IMG/VR virus record: IMGVR_UViG_3300025815_000030
Coordinates: 1 to 38,735 of that record
DNA from: a virus
Length of the DNA stretch: 38,735 nucleotides
Reading direction: 5' to 3' (one strand)
Of the stretch, positions 10,196-15,395 are shown piece after piece. Position 1 is the stretch's first letter; the number at the start of each line of letters is the position of its first letter. The translations under genes and the position numbers were made by a program. Below the pieces are notes generated by a model, which saw nothing but the letters and a program-made list of their open reading frames with translations, was not told where the DNA came from and did no database searches.

Positions 10196-10227
10196 CCCTG
10201 CCCTGAGAAATCGGGGTGGGGTTTTTT
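10196..10227 (+). terminator. Rho-independent terminator of gene 32
   Basis: CCCTGCCCT (10196-10204) pairs with GGGGTGGGG (10213-10221), using some G-U pairs, followed by TTTTTT. The T-run contains the stop codon of the convergent tape-measure gene. No T-run follows on the minus strand, so it works mainly rightward. Confidence 0.75.
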
Positions 10228-11641
10228 ATCTGCTGCCAACACCACTGCGTCTTTGTCTCGGTTGCCTCTCCGCTGCCTCAGTCTGGGCAGCAATACTTGT
10301 ATTTGAAGTTGGTGCAGAGATAGTGCTTCTATTATCGTTTGAAATCTGATTGATGACCACTGGTTGTGTTGCTACACCAGATACCGTATTTGCTGCATTT
10401 GCTGCCCGAATGTTCTGGAGTTTTGTCATATCGACTCCTTCCATTAGGTCTATCTCTTTTGTCTTCAAATCAGGTGCCTTGACAAAAGTCCTAATCGATT
10501 CGGGAATAATATCCCCCATAGAAAACTCCGGTAAGTCCACTCCAACTTTACTGAGGACTTTGCCAGCAATACTTCTCTTACCTCCAATTACTATCCCATC
10601 CAGCCATGATACGATATTTGCAAGAACCCCTTTCACTGCATTTACAATATTGAAGATGAAGTTCTCAATGAAAGTTGGAACTGCCTTGATTGCATTCCAC
10701 AATACCTTGAATCCAACAATTGCGGTTTGAATTGCCTCGTTGTTGTCAATGAAGTCCCTTATTGGTGCTATGACATTTTCATTAAACCAATCTTTGAGTT
10801 TGCCAAAGAATTCTCCAATTGAATTTGGGATATCCTCAGTGAACATCTTGGTAAAGGAGCCATCCATGAAGAACATAATGGCATCCTCCAGCATAAGCGA
10901 AAGCGTATCAACTAGAAGCTTGATTTCCTCCTTCAGATTAAACTCTTTGAGCATGTCTGTAAGCCATTCAGGGGCACCAAAGAACTCCAGAACATGACCA
11001 GCAAGTGTTGGAATCCATCCAAAGATTGCACCAAGAACACTTGCTCCAAACTCCTTCAATGCTGCCCCCAACTTCTCTGAGAAACCCCCCTCCGTCTCAT
11101 CAAAAGCTTTCTTGGCATCAAAAAATGCAGTGATCGCAGTGAAGATAGCAAATACTCTACCAAAGATTCTTCCAAGAAACTTGAGTCCTTTCTTGAGAAC
11201 AGGCTTTGCTTTTTTGATTCTCTCTAGAACCTTTCTGGCTCCACCTTCCTTACCAAAGAATCCTTTAATCTTTTCAAAGATACTGACAAATGTTTTCGCA
11301 ACTCCGCTTTGTTTGAATTTTGTAACCGCAAGACCAAGAGGGCTTTTCGCTCCAAGTATCGCTACAATTGAACCAACAACCTCAACCGCGCCAGCCAGTA
11401 ATCCACCAAGCCCACCCTTCTTGGTCTCACCTCCACCAGAATCAGCGGCTGGAGCAGCACCTCTACCACCACCAAGAGACGATGCAATCCTTTCCATCAA
11501 TGCACGATTCTTATCAGCGTCCTCCTTGTCTGCTAATTTAGACGCCCTTACAGCATTCTGTTGATTCTGGAGTTGGGTGCTAATACTTTCCAGAATTGTA
11601 TTCTGCTTTTCCAGTAAGGATATTGTAGCGTCAAGTGCCAT
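10226..11641 (-). CDS. Tape measure protein (tail length determinant, gp29-like)
   Basis: The 471-aa protein has a coiled-coil N-terminus (LEKQNTILESISTQLQNQQ), a glycine-rich linker (SSLGGGRGAAPAADSGGG), several hydrophobic segments (GLLAGAVEVVGSIVAILGA; FAIFTAITAFF; LGAIFGWIPTLAGHVLEFFG) and a Ser/Thr-rich C-terminus. Hydrophobic spans plus helical regions are typical of tape measure proteins, which set tail length and enter the host membrane at infection. Its position right after a frameshifted chaperone-like pair (gp26/gp51) fits the canonical layout. At 471 aa it is shorter than T4 gp29 (590 aa). The ATG overlaps the end of the gp51-like frame. Assignment to gp29 is by context, not by sequence identity. 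Confidence 0.6.
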   Translation of the reverse strand: MALDATISLLEKQNTILESISTQLQNQQNAVRASKLADKEDADKNRALMERIASSLGGGRGAAPAADSGGGETKKGGLGGLLAGAVEVVGSIVAILGAKSPLGLAVTKFKQSGVAKTFVSIFEKIKGFFGKEGGARKVLERIKKAKPVLKKGLKFLGRIFGRVFAIFTAITAFFDAKKAFDETEGGFSEKLGAALKEFGASVLGAIFGWIPTLAGHVLEFFGAPEWLTDMLKEFNLKEEIKLLVDTLSLMLEDAIMFFMDGSFTKMFTEDIPNSIGEFFGKLKDWFNENVIAPIRDFIDNNEAIQTAIVGFKVLWNAIKAVPTFIENFIFNIVNAVKGVLANIVSWLDGIVIGGKRSIAGKVLSKVGVDLPEFSMGDIIPESIRTFVKAPDLKTKEIDLMEGVDMTKLQNIRAANAANTVSGVATQPVVINQISNDNRSTISAPTSNTSIAAQTEAAERQPRQRRSGVGSR

Positions 11642-11825
11642 AGTCTTTTTTGTCCTTTTCTTCTTGTTCTTCTATGTGTTTGATCAACATAGCGCAGTAT
11701 ACTTCCCTCTCCCAAGGAAGCATATTTTCAAGGTCACTCAACGAGTATTTATGATGTTGCATCAGCCCAAAATTCACACGATAGTAATTAGAGAGAGAAT
11801 CGTGTGCTAGGCTTAGACGAAAAAA
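11631..11825 (-). CDS. gp51-like -1 frame, probably expressed by frameshift from gp26
   Basis: The -1 frame of gene 26 is open from the slippery site to TGA at 11633-11631. It continues after the shift as RLSLAHDSLSNYYRVNFGL, then MQHHKYSLSDL, ENMLPWEREVYCAML and a charged tail, about 62 residues past the shift. The MLPWEREVY segment resembles the short gp51-type (baseplate hub assembly catalyst) proteins of marine T4-like phages and the second half of tail assembly chaperones. An internal ATG at 11762 would give a 43-aa free protein, but it has no ribosome-binding site, and the protein-like sequence starts well upstream. A gp26-gp51 fusion of about 291 aa is the preferred reading. The stop overlaps the tape-measure start. 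Confidence 0.68.
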   Translation of the reverse strand, partial: FFRLSLAHDSLSNYYRVNFGLMQHHKYSLSDLENMLPWEREVYCAMLIKHIEEQEEKDKKDYGT

Positions 11826-11829
11826 TTTT
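11775..11829 (-). promoter_or_regulatory. Programmed -1 ribosomal frameshift signal (slippery site + hairpin)
   Basis: In the gp26 frame the mRNA reads GAA AAT TTT TTC GTC TAA. This contains two overlapping X_XXY_YYZ heptamers: A_AAT_TTT (11828-11822) and T_TTT_TTC (11825-11819), just before the gp26 stop. A perfect 8-bp hairpin CACACGAT/ATCGTGTG (11806-11775, 16-nt loop) starts 12 nt after the second heptamer. The site, its position before the stop, the open -1 frame and the downstream tape measure all fit a programmed frameshift. Confidence 0.72.
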
Positions 11830-12505
11830 CTGCTCCCTGAACCAACTTGCTATTCTCGCTATTACACTTTGAACACTGGAATTTCACTGTATGTTGAATC
11901 TTTGGTGCGGTATCGACAAAATCCTGAATCTTTTTCAACTGCTGAAAGTTCAGGGTCTCAATGAACTTGTTAATCTCCTCTGGACTCTCCTCCTCAAGAT
12001 TGTATGTGTTCTCTTTGTCAAAGATTGACTCAATGGCACAAGAAATAATCTCAGTAGGGTCATCCTTCTTGACTCGCATCACAGATTTCACTGTAGGATA
12101 TGTGCAGACAACACCAACGTCATCTGTGAGTTGAATCGTTGGTTCTACTTTCTTGCGAGAATATTTCACCTTGATATCATCGATATTAATAGAGATTGGA
12201 TTCTCATGTTTGCATTCATCACAAATCATGTTCAATTCTACTGTTTCTCCAACAGACTTGGCTCGGAGTTTCAGAAAGATGTATTCAAGGTCCACATTGG
12301 ATAGCTTATCAACCAGAAGTTTATTGAATGTGCAAGCATCAACGATATCGATCATTGCACGAAACATTGTGTTTGAATCATCAGATTGCTGGGCAATCAT
12401 CAAAACTTTCTCCTCCTTCACCAAGAAGGGGCGATATTCAATCTTCTGTTTTGTGGATGGTAGTGTGAGGGTATATTTCGGTGTCTCAAGTGTAGGTAGT
12501 GGCAT
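11813..12505 (-). CDS. 26: gp26-like baseplate hub subunit / tail assembly chaperone-like protein
   Basis: The 230-aa protein matches the T4 baseplate protein family (T4 gp26, 208 aa): EYRPFLVKEEKVLMIAQQSDD near the N-terminus, LPSTKQKIEYRPF, then KLSNVDLEYIFLKLRAKSVGE, and two Cys pairs (CDECKHEN; CSKCNSEN) that could bind zinc. In T4, gp26 works with gp51 and other hub proteins to build the central hub. The gene ends on a slippery sequence (ENFFV, stop), which allows extension into the gp51-like frame. It lies 3 nt after gp54 in a leftward run. Confidence 0.85.
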   Translation of the reverse strand: MPLPTLETPKYTLTLPSTKQKIEYRPFLVKEEKVLMIAQQSDDSNTMFRAMIDIVDACTFNKLLVDKLSNVDLEYIFLKLRAKSVGETVELNMICDECKHENPISINIDDIKVKYSRKKVEPTIQLTDDVGVVCTYPTVKSVMRVKKDDPTEIISCAIESIFDKENTYNLEEESPEEINKFIETLNFQQLKKIQDFVDTAPKIQHTVKFQCSKCNSENSKLVQGAENFFV

Positions 12506-12508
12506 AAC

Positions 12509-13201
12509 TTATATCAATCTTCTTAGTGATCCGGTAACTTGGTTTTTGATTCCACCAAGCAGGCTTGCAATGGCACCTTCTGGTTTGAAATCAGTGTATG
12601 ATATAGTGACTGACAGTTTTGTAATCTGGTCAGTCGCATTATTATCTAGCTGAACAGCAGTAATCTCAGTTGGAAACGCTTCAATCAATTTTACACCATA
12701 GATGGGGCGATTGTTACGATCCAGTGCTTGAATAATCACATCTGTCTTATATGTATCATCATGAGCAACCAGATACGTATTCTGGTCAACGATAGATGCA
12801 ATCCATCGCTCAAAGAATTTCTTCATGTAGTAATCATTGGTCAGGATAAAAGAGAATGTTATAGGTTCTGTATTGTATCCTGTAGGGGTATTTGTAGTAT
12901 ACCAGTCTTGATTGGATGCATACTCAGTGGTATTCAATCGTCTACCGGGAAAGGAGCAGGATTCACATAGCAATGCCACATCACGCGGGTCATTAATCAG
13001 GTCATTGAATCCGAAGTTTCCACTCAGTGCTTGAGATGCAATATTTTGCAAATCCAAATTGAAAAGACTTTGTGTGGGTGGGGTGATAATGACATTAAAG
13101 CGATTACTCTGGGCGAATCCAGCATGTTTTGAAACAGTGGACTTGAAGTCATCAATCGTTGATGGATTTACCGTATTTGTGATTCTATCGAGGAGTCCCA
13201 T
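12509..13201 (-). CDS. 54: gp54-like baseplate tail tube initiator (gp19 tube fold family)
   Basis: The 230-aa protein has the T4 tail-tube fold signature: NRFNVIITPP near the start, ALLCESCSFPGRRLNT, TGYNTEPITFSFILTNDYYMKKFFERWI, IYGVKLIEAFPTEI and ITKLSVTISYTDFKPE. Two tube-like proteins, gp48 and gp54, sit between baseplate and tail tube in T4. The longer tube-cap homologue lies across the divergent promoter (14265), so this shorter one is called gp54. The ATG at 13201 overlaps the previous stop (TAATG). The open frame extends upstream, but that would run inside the preceding gene. gp19 itself (tail tube) is the alternative, less likely in this context. Confidence 0.72.
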   Translation of the reverse strand: MGLLDRITNTVNPSTIDDFKSTVSKHAGFAQSNRFNVIITPPTQSLFNLDLQNIASQALSGNFGFNDLINDPRDVALLCESCSFPGRRLNTTEYASNQDWYTTNTPTGYNTEPITFSFILTNDYYMKKFFERWIASIVDQNTYLVAHDDTYKTDVIIQALDRNNRPIYGVKLIEAFPTEITAVQLDNNATDQITKLSVTISYTDFKPEGAIASLLGGIKNQVTGSLRRLI

Positions 13202-13794
13202 TATCTTCCTTTGATTATTTTTCTTGAGTCTGACCAGACCTTGTTTCTTGATGCTCCACTGAAGGAGTCGAATGGTAAAAAGAGAACAACCTCCCATTCA
13301 CTTGCAGGAACAAGGATGGGTTTGCTCTTCATTTGTGATGTGAGATAGCGTTTAAAGCAGGGTGCAAATTCTTTATACTTGGTAACACCCTTGAGAATGT
13401 CATATGAAATTCTTAGCTTTGTTGTCTCATCAAATTTATTATTATTTGCCACATCAGTAATCTTATCAAAGAAAACAGCACGAACATTTGGTGGCAAGTA
13501 GTGTAGATTGATGCCATAGAAACCCTTTGGAGCACGATCTACCATGAATATCAGTGGGTATTGGTCAAAGTATGGAAGGGTTGCCTTGGTCTTGGCATCA
13601 TACTTATAGAGAAACATCTTTCCTACCACGGTTTTCTGACGTTGAATCAGAGCATCATCCTTCAGTAGTTCTCTGCGGTTGACATTCTTGATGTTCTGAA
13701 CGCGCTTGCGAAACCAATCCAAGGACTGCTTGGTTCTTGGAGTAATCCCCTTACGAAATGCTTCGATTTCCAGTTTCTCTAGGTAAGATGCCAT
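13201..13794 (-). CDS. gp2-like candidate (DNA end protector) or conserved structural protein
   Basis: The 197-aa protein begins MASYLEKLEIEAFRKGI, has a basic helix (SLDWFRKRVQNIKNVNRREL) and the conserved-looking block LFLYKYDAKTK-like KMFLYKYDAKTKATLPYFD, then PLIFMVDRAPKGFYGINLHYLPP. The YDAKTK...LPYxDxxPL...GFxGxNxHYLPP pattern recurs in T4-like marine phages, where I recall it annotated as a DNA end protector (gp2) or structural protein. T4 has gene 2 next to gene 4, as here, which supports gp2, but T4 gp2 is longer (274 aa). Its ATG follows a CATAAATA late box by 8 nt. Basic charge fits DNA contact. Confidence 0.45.
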   Translation of the reverse strand: MASYLEKLEIEAFRKGITPRTKQSLDWFRKRVQNIKNVNRRELLKDDALIQRQKTVVGKMFLYKYDAKTKATLPYFDQYPLIFMVDRAPKGFYGINLHYLPPNVRAVFFDKITDVANNNKFDETTKLRISYDILKGVTKYKEFAPCFKRYLTSQMKSKPILVPASEWEVVLFLPFDSFSGASRNKVWSDSRKIIKGR

Positions 13795-13810: not shown

Positions 13811-14249
13811 TCAGCAAACGAATACCAAGTTTCTTGAGAGTCTTCTCTGTCCAGATTTCAAATATCCAGCCACGATTCTCACAGTAACTGGTTGCTGCTT
13901 CCCACTTAGAGGTATTCTTGGCATAGGTCATGACCTCCTTGAGATACTTTTTTGACTGTCTCTTGGGTTGCTTAGGTGGCTGAGTCTGTTTCTCTGGTTT
14001 GATTTCAATGAGATACACCTGACCAGTCTTGAACTTGATATAGAGATCCATGAAGTATCGATGTGGTCTACCGTCTGTCTTGCATCGATAAGGAATGACT
14101 ACCTCCTCACTGTTCCATTCCAAGACATCAGGGTTATCATCCAGCCAGCGAAAGGCTTGACGTTCCCAGAGAGAACGATAAGTAATAGCAGAGGCATCAC
14201 CACGATACTTTGCGAGATTTCGAGGCTGGAACTTTCCACGATAGGTCAT
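13806..14249 (-). CDS. 4: gp4-like head completion protein
   Basis: The 147-aa protein (T4 gp4: 150 aa) carries the family landmarks: MTYRGKFQPRNLAKYRGD, ITYRSLWERQAFRWLDDNPDV, EWNSEEVVIPYRC, RPHRYFMDLYIKF and VYLIEIKPEKQTQPP. The E...D...E-x-K arrangement (SEE, RYFMDLY, LIEIKPEKQ) is a restriction-endonuclease-like core, as proposed for gp4. In T4 it acts with gp2 to finish the packaged head before tail joining. The ATG lies at the edge of the 21-bp divergent late promoter palindrome. Confidence 0.92.
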   Translation of the reverse strand: MTYRGKFQPRNLAKYRGDASAITYRSLWERQAFRWLDDNPDVLEWNSEEVVIPYRCKTDGRPHRYFMDLYIKFKTGQVYLIEIKPEKQTQPPKQPKRQSKKYLKEVMTYAKNTSKWEAATSYCENRGWIFEIWTEKTLKKLGIRLLT

Positions 14250-14267
14250 ATAAATACAATTTATATG
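14247..14267. promoter_or_regulatory. 21-bp near-palindromic divergent late promoter between gp4 and gp48
   Basis: The left arm CATATAAATA (14247-14256) and right arm AATTTATATG (14258-14267) are inverted repeats with 9 of 10 matches. They hold a TATAAATA late box on the plus strand (14249-14256) and TATAAATT on the minus strand (14265-14258). The two outward ATG codons are the ends of the palindrome, each 8 nt beyond its own late box. With T4 late spacing, both mRNAs would have about 3 nt of leader. Confidence 0.7.
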
Positions 14268-15395
14268 GTCACGAATCTCATCAGAAGTACGGCAACAAAG
14301 GTTGGGGATAATTTCAATTCTCAGTTGAATGAACTCAAGGATTCGATTTTCCCGAGGAAGATCGAAGAACTTGGTGATGGATTCTTTGTCGATAATCCTG
14401 CTGGGAATAGAATTATTTTTCCACTATCCATGAGGAGTGAGACTGCTGCATCTCGTCCCATGATATCGTTTACAATTGAATTCGAAAGAGACAAGCCACC
14501 TAGCACAATTTACTTCCCGTGCCCCGGAGGGATTGCATTTAATGACCAAGGGAATTACGGAACAGTGGAATTGGGTGCCCTTGGTGCTTTGGCAGGAGAT
14601 ATCGCTGATGTTGCATCTGCTGGAAGCCTGAAAGAAGCAGGAGAAATGATTGCCACTAAGATAAAAGACAAGGCTTCTGTTGGTGGAGTTAAGAATTTGA
14701 TTATTGAGCAAGCAATGGAAGCTGCGTCTGGAACTAGTTTTGCTGGTGTTGATGTCGGAGGAGTGGCAAAGTTCGCAACCAAGAGAGTACAGAATCCAAG
14801 GGTGAATACCTTGTTTGAATCTAATTCTATGCGAACCTTTTCCTTTAATTTTAAGTTGATTGCTTCCTCTGCTCAAGAGTATCAAGTAATTGATGCGATC
14901 CATACACTCTTTCAGGCAGCAATCTACGCGCAACCAGTGAAAGGTTCTATCAATAGCCTTCATTTTCCTCCCACAACTGAGGTTCGTTTTCTATTCAAGG
15001 GTAAAGAGAATCCAAATATTCCAAAGATTCATAAGACCTATCTCACAGGGATGTCAAGCACATACAACTCCAGCGTGAACTCATGGAGAACAAATGGTGA
15101 ACCTCTAGAGGCAGATTTTTCTCTGAATTTTCAGGAGATACGAGTCCTGACACGCGACGATATTGAAGAACTTCGTAAAGATTCACCAGACCGCAATAAG
15201 GGCGCCAGAGGAAATTTTGATCGTATCGGTAAAGAGGTAAATAAGAAGGTGAACAAGGCGACAGAAGAAGTCAAGGCACTAAACGATCTCGGAAGAGAGA
15301 ATATTGCCAATACTGGTTCTGCTGGGACTGGTAATGCTCTGTTTGATAACCTGATTGAATTTGGCGACCGCTTTAATAATTTTCTAACAAGATAA
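14265..15395 (+). CDS. 48: gp48-like baseplate tail tube cap
   Basis: The 376-aa protein (T4 gp48: 364 aa) starts MVTNLIRSTATKVGDNFNSQ and has PRKIEELGDGFFVDNP, a central Ala/Gly-rich region (LGALGALAGDIADVASAG), then RTFSFNFKLIASSAQE, DAIHTLFQAAIYAQ, PPTTEVRFLFKG and LTGMSSTYNSSVNSW; the FxFKLxAxSxxE and Y.P motifs are typical of the tube-like fold of T4 gp48/gp54. The start is the ATG inside the divergent late-promoter palindrome. The longer open frame starting upstream lies antisense within gp4 and is not used. It heads the rightward structural operon. Confidence 0.85.
   Translation: MVTNLIRSTATKVGDNFNSQLNELKDSIFPRKIEELGDGFFVDNPAGNRIIFPLSMRSETAASRPMISFTIEFERDKPPSTIYFPCPGGIAFNDQGNYGTVELGALGALAGDIADVASAGSLKEAGEMIATKIKDKASVGGVKNLIIEQAMEAASGTSFAGVDVGGVAKFATKRVQNPRVNTLFESNSMRTFSFNFKLIASSAQEYQVIDAIHTLFQAAIYAQPVKGSINSLHFPPTTEVRFLFKGKENPNIPKIHKTYLTGMSSTYNSSVNSWRTNGEPLEADFSLNFQEIRVLTRDDIEELRKDSPDRNKGARGNFDRIGKEVNKKVNKATEEVKALNDLGRENIANTGSAGTGNALFDNLIEFGDRFNNFLTR

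Follow-up and report, generated by a model that had tools for sequence, protein, structure and literature searches.

The window analysed here is the whole of IMG/VR virus record IMGVR_UViG_3300025815_000030 (38,735 bases), itself a 38.7-kb piece that ends where the window ends, and it carries structural genes of T4-like type. On its minus strand lies a homologue of T4 gene 26, overlapped at its 3' end by a -1 frame that encodes a gp51-like tail and followed by a tape measure gene. The sequence makes it very likely that this marine T4-related phage produces a short and a long form of a tail assembly chaperone (TAC) by -1 ribosomal frameshifting.

Gene 26 ends in GAA AAT TTT TTC GTC TAA. Two overlapping heptamers, claimed in an earlier note made from the sequence alone, were both found here in frame with gp26 (AAATTTT, 11828-11822, and TTTTTTC, 11825-11819), and a single codon, GTC, separates the second from the stop. 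From 11819 the -1 frame runs without a stop to a TGA at 11633-11631, giving 62 codons after the slip and a predicted fused product of 291 residues with its junction after residue 229, which are the lengths that had been read previously. The tape measure ATG at 11641 overlaps the final 11 nucleotides (nt) of this frame. Gp26 matches the Pfam profile PF12322 (E 3.9e-59, 200.4 bits against a curated cut-off of 24.5) and phrog_150 (E 5e-63). The -1 frame matches phrog_634, labelled 'baseplate hub assembly catalyst' (E 2e-26, profile positions 60-115 of 121), and also the end of phrog_150 (E 6.1e-5), and phrog_150 therefore includes members that hold both parts as one protein. Both phrog_150 matches in the 38.7-kb record fall at this locus, and no second copy of the family was found in it.

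Table 1 Features of the gp26 locus, followed by its upstream neighbours
Feature	Coordinates	Strand	Remarks
gp26, short tail assembly chaperone (TAC-N), 230 aa	11813..12505	minus	putative role
Slippery heptamer T_TTT_TTC	11819..11825	minus	in frame with gp26
Heptamer A_AAT_TTT	11822..11828	minus	overlaps T_TTT_TTC; seen in the window, not conserved
Stop codon TAA of gp26	11813..11815	minus	
Bulged 15-bp stem-loop, probable frameshift stimulator	11764..11813	minus	11813-11799 paired with 11782-11775 and 11770-11764
-1 frame, gp51 C-terminal tail of the predicted long form (TAC-NC, 291 aa)	11631..11819	minus	62 codons and TGA
Tape measure protein, 471 aa	10226..11641	minus	phrog_58 E 9.3e-7
Tail-tube / baseplate tube initiator protein (gp54/gp19 type)	12509..13297	minus	PF06841 E 2.2e-9; phrog_45 E 3.5e-39; upstream neighbour of gp26
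DNA end protector	13794-13201	minus	second in transcription order
Head-closure protein	14249-13806	minus	first in transcription order

Conservation of the slippery site and the -1 frame

Gp26 relatives occur in 694 phage records. The sample analysed comprised 200 sequences (199 loci and the window). Loci L001-L080 were retrieved with the gp26 of the window; the remaining loci were found with nt-1, phiM12 and Mooltan gp26 or T4 gp51 as queries, or taken from named records, which makes the sample uneven. Six loci without a gp26-type open reading frame (ORF) closed inside them were dropped (L011, L134, L155, L156, L171, L198). After removal of ten T4-type loci as well, the analysis covered 184 gp26 ORFs, which group into 61 clusters at 80% identity. 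L058, whose contig ends 26 nt past the heptamer, was excluded from tests of the downstream stretch.

T_TTT_TTN was present within the last 20 gp26 codons in 163 of the 184 ORFs and 56 of the 61 clusters. It occupied 6 of 11967 other in-frame positions in the same genes; across long ORFs of these loci, this spelling was used for 10 of 217 other Phe-Phe pairs. The final base of the heptamer was C in 40 clusters, T in 14, A in one and G in one. Within the first IMG/VR set (80 fetched, L011 cut off), all 79 loci carried T_TTT_TT[C/T/A] in frame (58 C, 19 T, 2 A), with 0-3 codons between heptamer and stop. The amino acid encoded 5' of TTT varied (Ser, Asp, Asn, Ala, His, Thr) with a third base that was always T; the corresponding log10 P of -15.5 assumes independent clusters and is overstated, since clusters at 80% identity remain mutually related and the P value is indicative only. 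A_AAT_TTT was present in just 6/56 clusters and was rejected as the main site, leaving T_TTT_TTC as the working member of the two heptamers first noticed. In 45/56 clusters the -1 frame has a stop no more than 30 nt upstream of the heptamer, and the shift must therefore fall within that stretch in these clusters.

Past the gp26 stop, the -1 frame was open in 56/56 heptamer clusters. In 55 it stayed open over 120 nt or more, the remaining one being L058, where the contig edge ends it; the other two frames contained stops in 55/55. Pairs with a synonymous rate (pS) below 0.6 and a nonsynonymous rate (pN) below 0.4 (n=42) gave a median pN/pS of 0.264 for the -1 frame, with all 42 below 1. The frame is under purifying selection. 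In 39/56 clusters, the window's included, it contains no ATG, GTG or TTG ahead of the conserved block. Heptamer and open frame are kept both in marine T4-like phages and in several further lineages, the pattern for which the earlier note had suggested a search.

The site is also followed by RNA structure. A perfect 8-bp hairpin described by the earlier note (11806-11799/11782-11775, 12 nt past the heptamer) is present, and its extent had been underestimated: folding added seven outer pairs and a 4-nt bulge ahead of the eight, so that the stem has 15 bp and begins 5 nt past the heptamer. Its minimum free energy is -18.6 kcal/mol over 61 nt (z -3.95; 1/200 shuffles at least as stable). Across clusters, the 60 nt starting 3 nt past the heptamer had a mean structure z of -1.22, with 13 of 55 clusters below -2, compared with mean z values of -0.40 to +0.17 and 2 to 6 clusters below -2 in eight other intervals from -360 to +130. 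Only the stretch directly 3' of the heptamer is enriched in RNA structure, the form of which varies by lineage. The S-PM2 hairpin has 14 pairs, and a single conserved downstream hairpin was rejected because lineages differ in structure; that of the window is lineage-specific. On the 5' side, the 18 nt ahead of the site fell in the lowest 10% of anti-Shine-Dalgarno energies in 26/56 clusters.

Homology to T4 gp26 and gp51 and resemblance to tail assembly chaperones

T4 makes the homologous proteins from two genes. Residues 1-201 of T4 gp51 (249 aa) match PF12322 (E 3.9e-52), residues 147-246 match phrog_634, and the protein matches phrog_150 at nearly full length (profile 13-280 of 282); T4 gp51 is a single-frame protein made of a gp26-like part and the tail. 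When a profile of 55 predicted fused products was compared by hhalign, the alignment to T4-type gp51 crossed the junction (E 9.3e-23), whereas that to T4 gp26 ended within 4 residues past it (E 2.3e-29). On the strength of these alignments, T4 gp26 is assigned by homology as the counterpart of the short form and T4 gp51 as that of the long form, which corresponds to the entire predicted frameshift product. The earlier note had treated gp26 and gp51 of T4 as separate genes; they are indeed separate, on opposite strands, with the amendment that gp51 is a full-length fused homologue and not the tail alone. A tree of the family, which bears on the timing of the T4 duplication, joined long branches and gave no resolution.

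T4-type genes 26 lack the site. In 12 distinct T4-type records, T_TTT_TTN never appeared among the final 20 gene 26 codons. The Phe-Phe of GLKEFF was kept in nine of the 12, spelled TTC TTT in eight and TTT TTT after G in one, and was lost in three; the T4-type phage Moon also spells it TTC TTT. Phages that encode the long form separately have no slippery site, even when they retain the peptide. Taken together, the conservation of site and frame, the 39/56 clusters without a start and the end-to-end homology to T4 gp51 support a -1 frameshift from gp26 into the gp51-like frame, as first proposed from the window alone.

We then considered the fold of gp26. Its AlphaFold2 model (predicted local distance difference test, pLDDT, 92.5) aligned by VIA-align over residues 5-94 to 3fgx, an uncharacterised protein (Z 8.3), and over residues 1-85 to the HK97 tail assembly chaperone 2ob9 (83 aligned, 3.8 Å) with a Z of 7.5, a value in the range below 8 that may reflect a common arrangement; the next row was at Z 3.5. 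Foldseek of the model against the PDB returned nothing significant, with 2ob9 at E 3.1. Because of this Foldseek value and the tool's warning on Z below 8, we grade the modelled fold as moderate support, alongside gene layout, for gp26 being a tail assembly chaperone. Cysteine pairs in gp26 resemble a zinc ribbon, with Pfam matches that were weak and below cut-off. The AlphaFold2 model of T4-type gp51 (pLDDT 84.5) has an order of elements similar to gp26 and then helices (196-203, 206-221, 226-231, 234-248), of which the final three belong to the gp51 tail; its fold comparison gave no match beyond Z 4.7. A sequence search of the PDB with the gp26 and gp51 profiles gave weak unrelated matches only (best E 0.3 and 0.1).

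Proposed frameshifting and its alternatives

The layout invites comparison with phage lambda, in which a tail assembly chaperone frameshift (G/GT) was reportedly described by Xu, Hendrix and Duda in 2004. The lambda slippery site is G_GGA_AAG. Both systems would make a short chaperone and a -1 long form just ahead of the tape measure gene, with low homology between them, and they differ in the T_TTT_TTC site of gp26, its sequence family (PF12322) and its zinc-ribbon-like cysteine pairs. As in G/GT-type loci, the chaperone gene lies directly upstream of the tape measure gene, a slippery heptamer is conserved at the 3' end of the short form (56/61 clusters), and the overlapping -1 frame lacks a start of its own, other than in the remaining 17/56 clusters. 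Given the resemblance of the N-terminal gp26 domain to the HK97 chaperone, gp26 and the gp26-51 fusion probably act like G and GT.

In the mechanism we propose, most ribosomes translating gene 26 would halt at TAA 11815-11813 and release the 230-residue short form. A minority would slip by -1 on T_TTT_TTC as both Phe tRNAs re-pair in the -1 frame, an event that the stem-loop may assist in the window's lineage. Slipped ribosomes would bypass the stop and yield the 291-residue long form, whose last 62 residues form a predicted helical gp51 tail. By analogy with lambda, the short form may cover the tape measure protein, to which the long form may recruit tail-tube subunits. We infer slippage, its rate and the partners of each form from the observed homology, heptamer and frame conservation, lack of starts, structure enrichment and fold resemblance.

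Several observations weigh against a frameshift of this kind. There is no single conserved stimulator, with z below -2 in 13/55 clusters (15/55 in a separate run), and conserved Glu-Gly codons account for most of the Shine-Dalgarno-like GAGGGA signal 5' of the site: against synonymous randomisation the anti-Shine-Dalgarno energy had a mean z of -0.44, with z below 0 in 31/56 clusters. Ackermannviridae-type phages and Vibrio phage D528 keep the -1 tail without a canonical heptamer (5/61 clusters). Start codons present a further difficulty. An ATG lies 4-5 codons past the heptamer start in 9/56 clusters, where a separate short gp51 is possible, a further 3/56 have a nearby GTG or TTG, and 5/56 have a start only upstream of the heptamer.

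The nine clusters with such an ATG would suit a gp51 made as a separate small protein, whether ribosomes re-initiate past the gp26 stop or enter at an internal start. Annotation agrees with this in part: among ten relatives' records of named phages (cyanophages, a pelagiphage and a methylophage; L208-L217) checked for gp51, seven carry a separate gp51-like ORF, always from a -1-frame ATG, three leave gp51 unannotated and none joins it to gp26. The seven annotated starts, however, lie 3 to 90 nt past the gp26 end and lose -1-frame residues (21 in five records, 34 in one and 5 in one). The stretch ahead of the internal Met had a median pN/pS of 0.64 (239 pairs, 84% below 1) against 1.08 and 1.77 in the other frames, there is no start to use in the 39 start-less clusters, and re-initiation leaves the retention of T_TTT_TTN in all 56 unexplained. 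We therefore regard a separate gp51 as a very improbable general explanation, and the real gp51 product in these ten phages is probably a fusion to gp26.

Transcriptional slippage on the T run is an alternative source of the long form that we hold to be less probable still. The site is a homopolymer run, as such slippage would need, but efficient transcriptional slippage usually requires about 9 or more residues, and the run is of 6 in 42/56 clusters, 7 in 11 and 8 in 3; codon phase and downstream structure are also retained, neither of which it would need. A sequencing error or decayed gene is already refuted for practical purposes, given that the same arrangement is seen in 56 clusters and in named isolates including S-PM2, P-SSM2, HTVC008M and Aeh1, and that eight other IMG/VR contigs in the window's cluster carry it, six with an identical -1 frame and two differing at 4 and 5 codons (3 synonymous in each).

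Distribution, exceptions and published systems

Among named phages, the heptamer and -1 tail were found in 17/20 loci of one set, including S-PM2, P-SSM2, Syn30, P-HM2, S-RIM2, HTVC008M, Mosig, Melnitz-3, phiM12, AF3, Ps15, ACP17 and nt-1; those without were D528, 2050H1 and Mooltan. A second set had the site in 3/6 (VmeM-32, 6E35.1a and RHph_I46), the others being Ackermannvirus 0507-KN2-1, K444 and the T4-type Moon. Aeh1, S13 and CC2 (L224, L225, L226) all had it, with unannotated tails that match phrog_634 (E 2.5e-13, 5.5e-10 and 1.2e-11, respectively).

The phages that keep the tail without the heptamer are distant from the window. Their tails match phrog_634 unevenly (Serratia phage 2050H1 at E 9.8e-8, D528 at just 0.1). 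Their junctions have an NTT_TTY core (ATT_TTC, GTT_TTC, CTT_TTC or CTT_TTT), and an ATG overlaps the gp26 stop in 4/21 exception loci (D528 and three Ackermannviridae) and also in Vibrio phage K444. The gp26 3' ends concerned are those of L088, L089, L090, L172-L189, L218 and L221. Loss of the heptamer with both frames kept and an own start for gp51, which the earlier note had set against its proposal, was found in part, in these far lineages only. A tentative reading, which we put at somewhat under even, is that T4-like phages express one chaperone pair in three or more ways. The first would be a poly-U -1 shift (marine phages, pelagiphages, KVP40-/Aeh1-type, rhizobial and Stenotrophomonas phages); the second, a pair of genes, one of which encodes the fused long form in a single frame, without a slippery site (T4); and the third, in Ackermannviridae and Vibrio phages of D528 and K444 type, the -1 tail placed after a non-canonical NTT_TTY site (R_ATT_TTC, G_GTT_TTC, A_CTT_TTC or G_CTT_TTT) or a stop/start overlap. 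If so, the third group would represent an undescribed shift site or a changed mechanism. Frameshift and second gene also offer a natural comparison, as routes to the same protein pair.

The concept appears to be already in print for T4-like phages (Vladimirov, Gautam & Davidson 2022, via citing papers). A passage of PMC5009743 describes the lambda G/GT frameshift and names T4 as the exception. According to passages that cite Vladimirov et al. 2022, some T4-like phages replace the frameshift by two genes, one short and the other longer and fused (PMC10885494), and poly-T runs are known -1 signals in T4-like TAC-N genes (PMC12846349). PMC12846349 also places TAC frameshifts in Vandenendeviridae, Andersonviridae and phage Adele; the Adele type shares the poly-T -1 site at the TAC-N end, ahead of the tape measure, and a -1 frame that no allele in that study interrupts, and differs in its GTTTTT motif and phage families. 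Passages of PMC12859696, PMC11131426, PMC3004832 and PMC7650644 contained nothing further on a gp26 frameshift. Because the citing papers attribute the scheme to Vladimirov et al. 2022, the window's locus is best regarded as an uncultivated example of a known scheme. Six points are not found in the passages of the citing papers: a comparison with chance over all clusters, missing start codons, RNA structure tied to its position, T4-type genes 26 that lack the site, a gp51 tail in Aeh1, and the unusual junctions of Ackermannviridae.

Frameshifting would also explain a puzzle of annotation. Passages of Sullivan et al. 2010 (PMC3037559) describe gp51 of cyanophages and vibriophages as missing roughly its first 200 residues, with cyanophage gp51 about a fifth of normal length, and Aeh1 as without gp51. 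The absent N-terminus would be gp26 itself, and Aeh1 has the unannotated -1 frame described above. Separately, the record of Citrobacter phage Moon (L222:57-1695) combines gp27 with gp28 into a tape measure chaperone labelled a 'GT-like fusion'; gp26 and gp51 are the better candidates for the chaperones.

Two smaller observations concern neighbouring genes of the window. The tape measure ORF (10226-11641) is short, at 471 codons, and its match to a tape measure profile is modest. On the plus strand, a gp48-like ORF (13968-15395) has a listed TTG start that overlaps the opposite-strand head-closure gene, and its true start probably lies further downstream.

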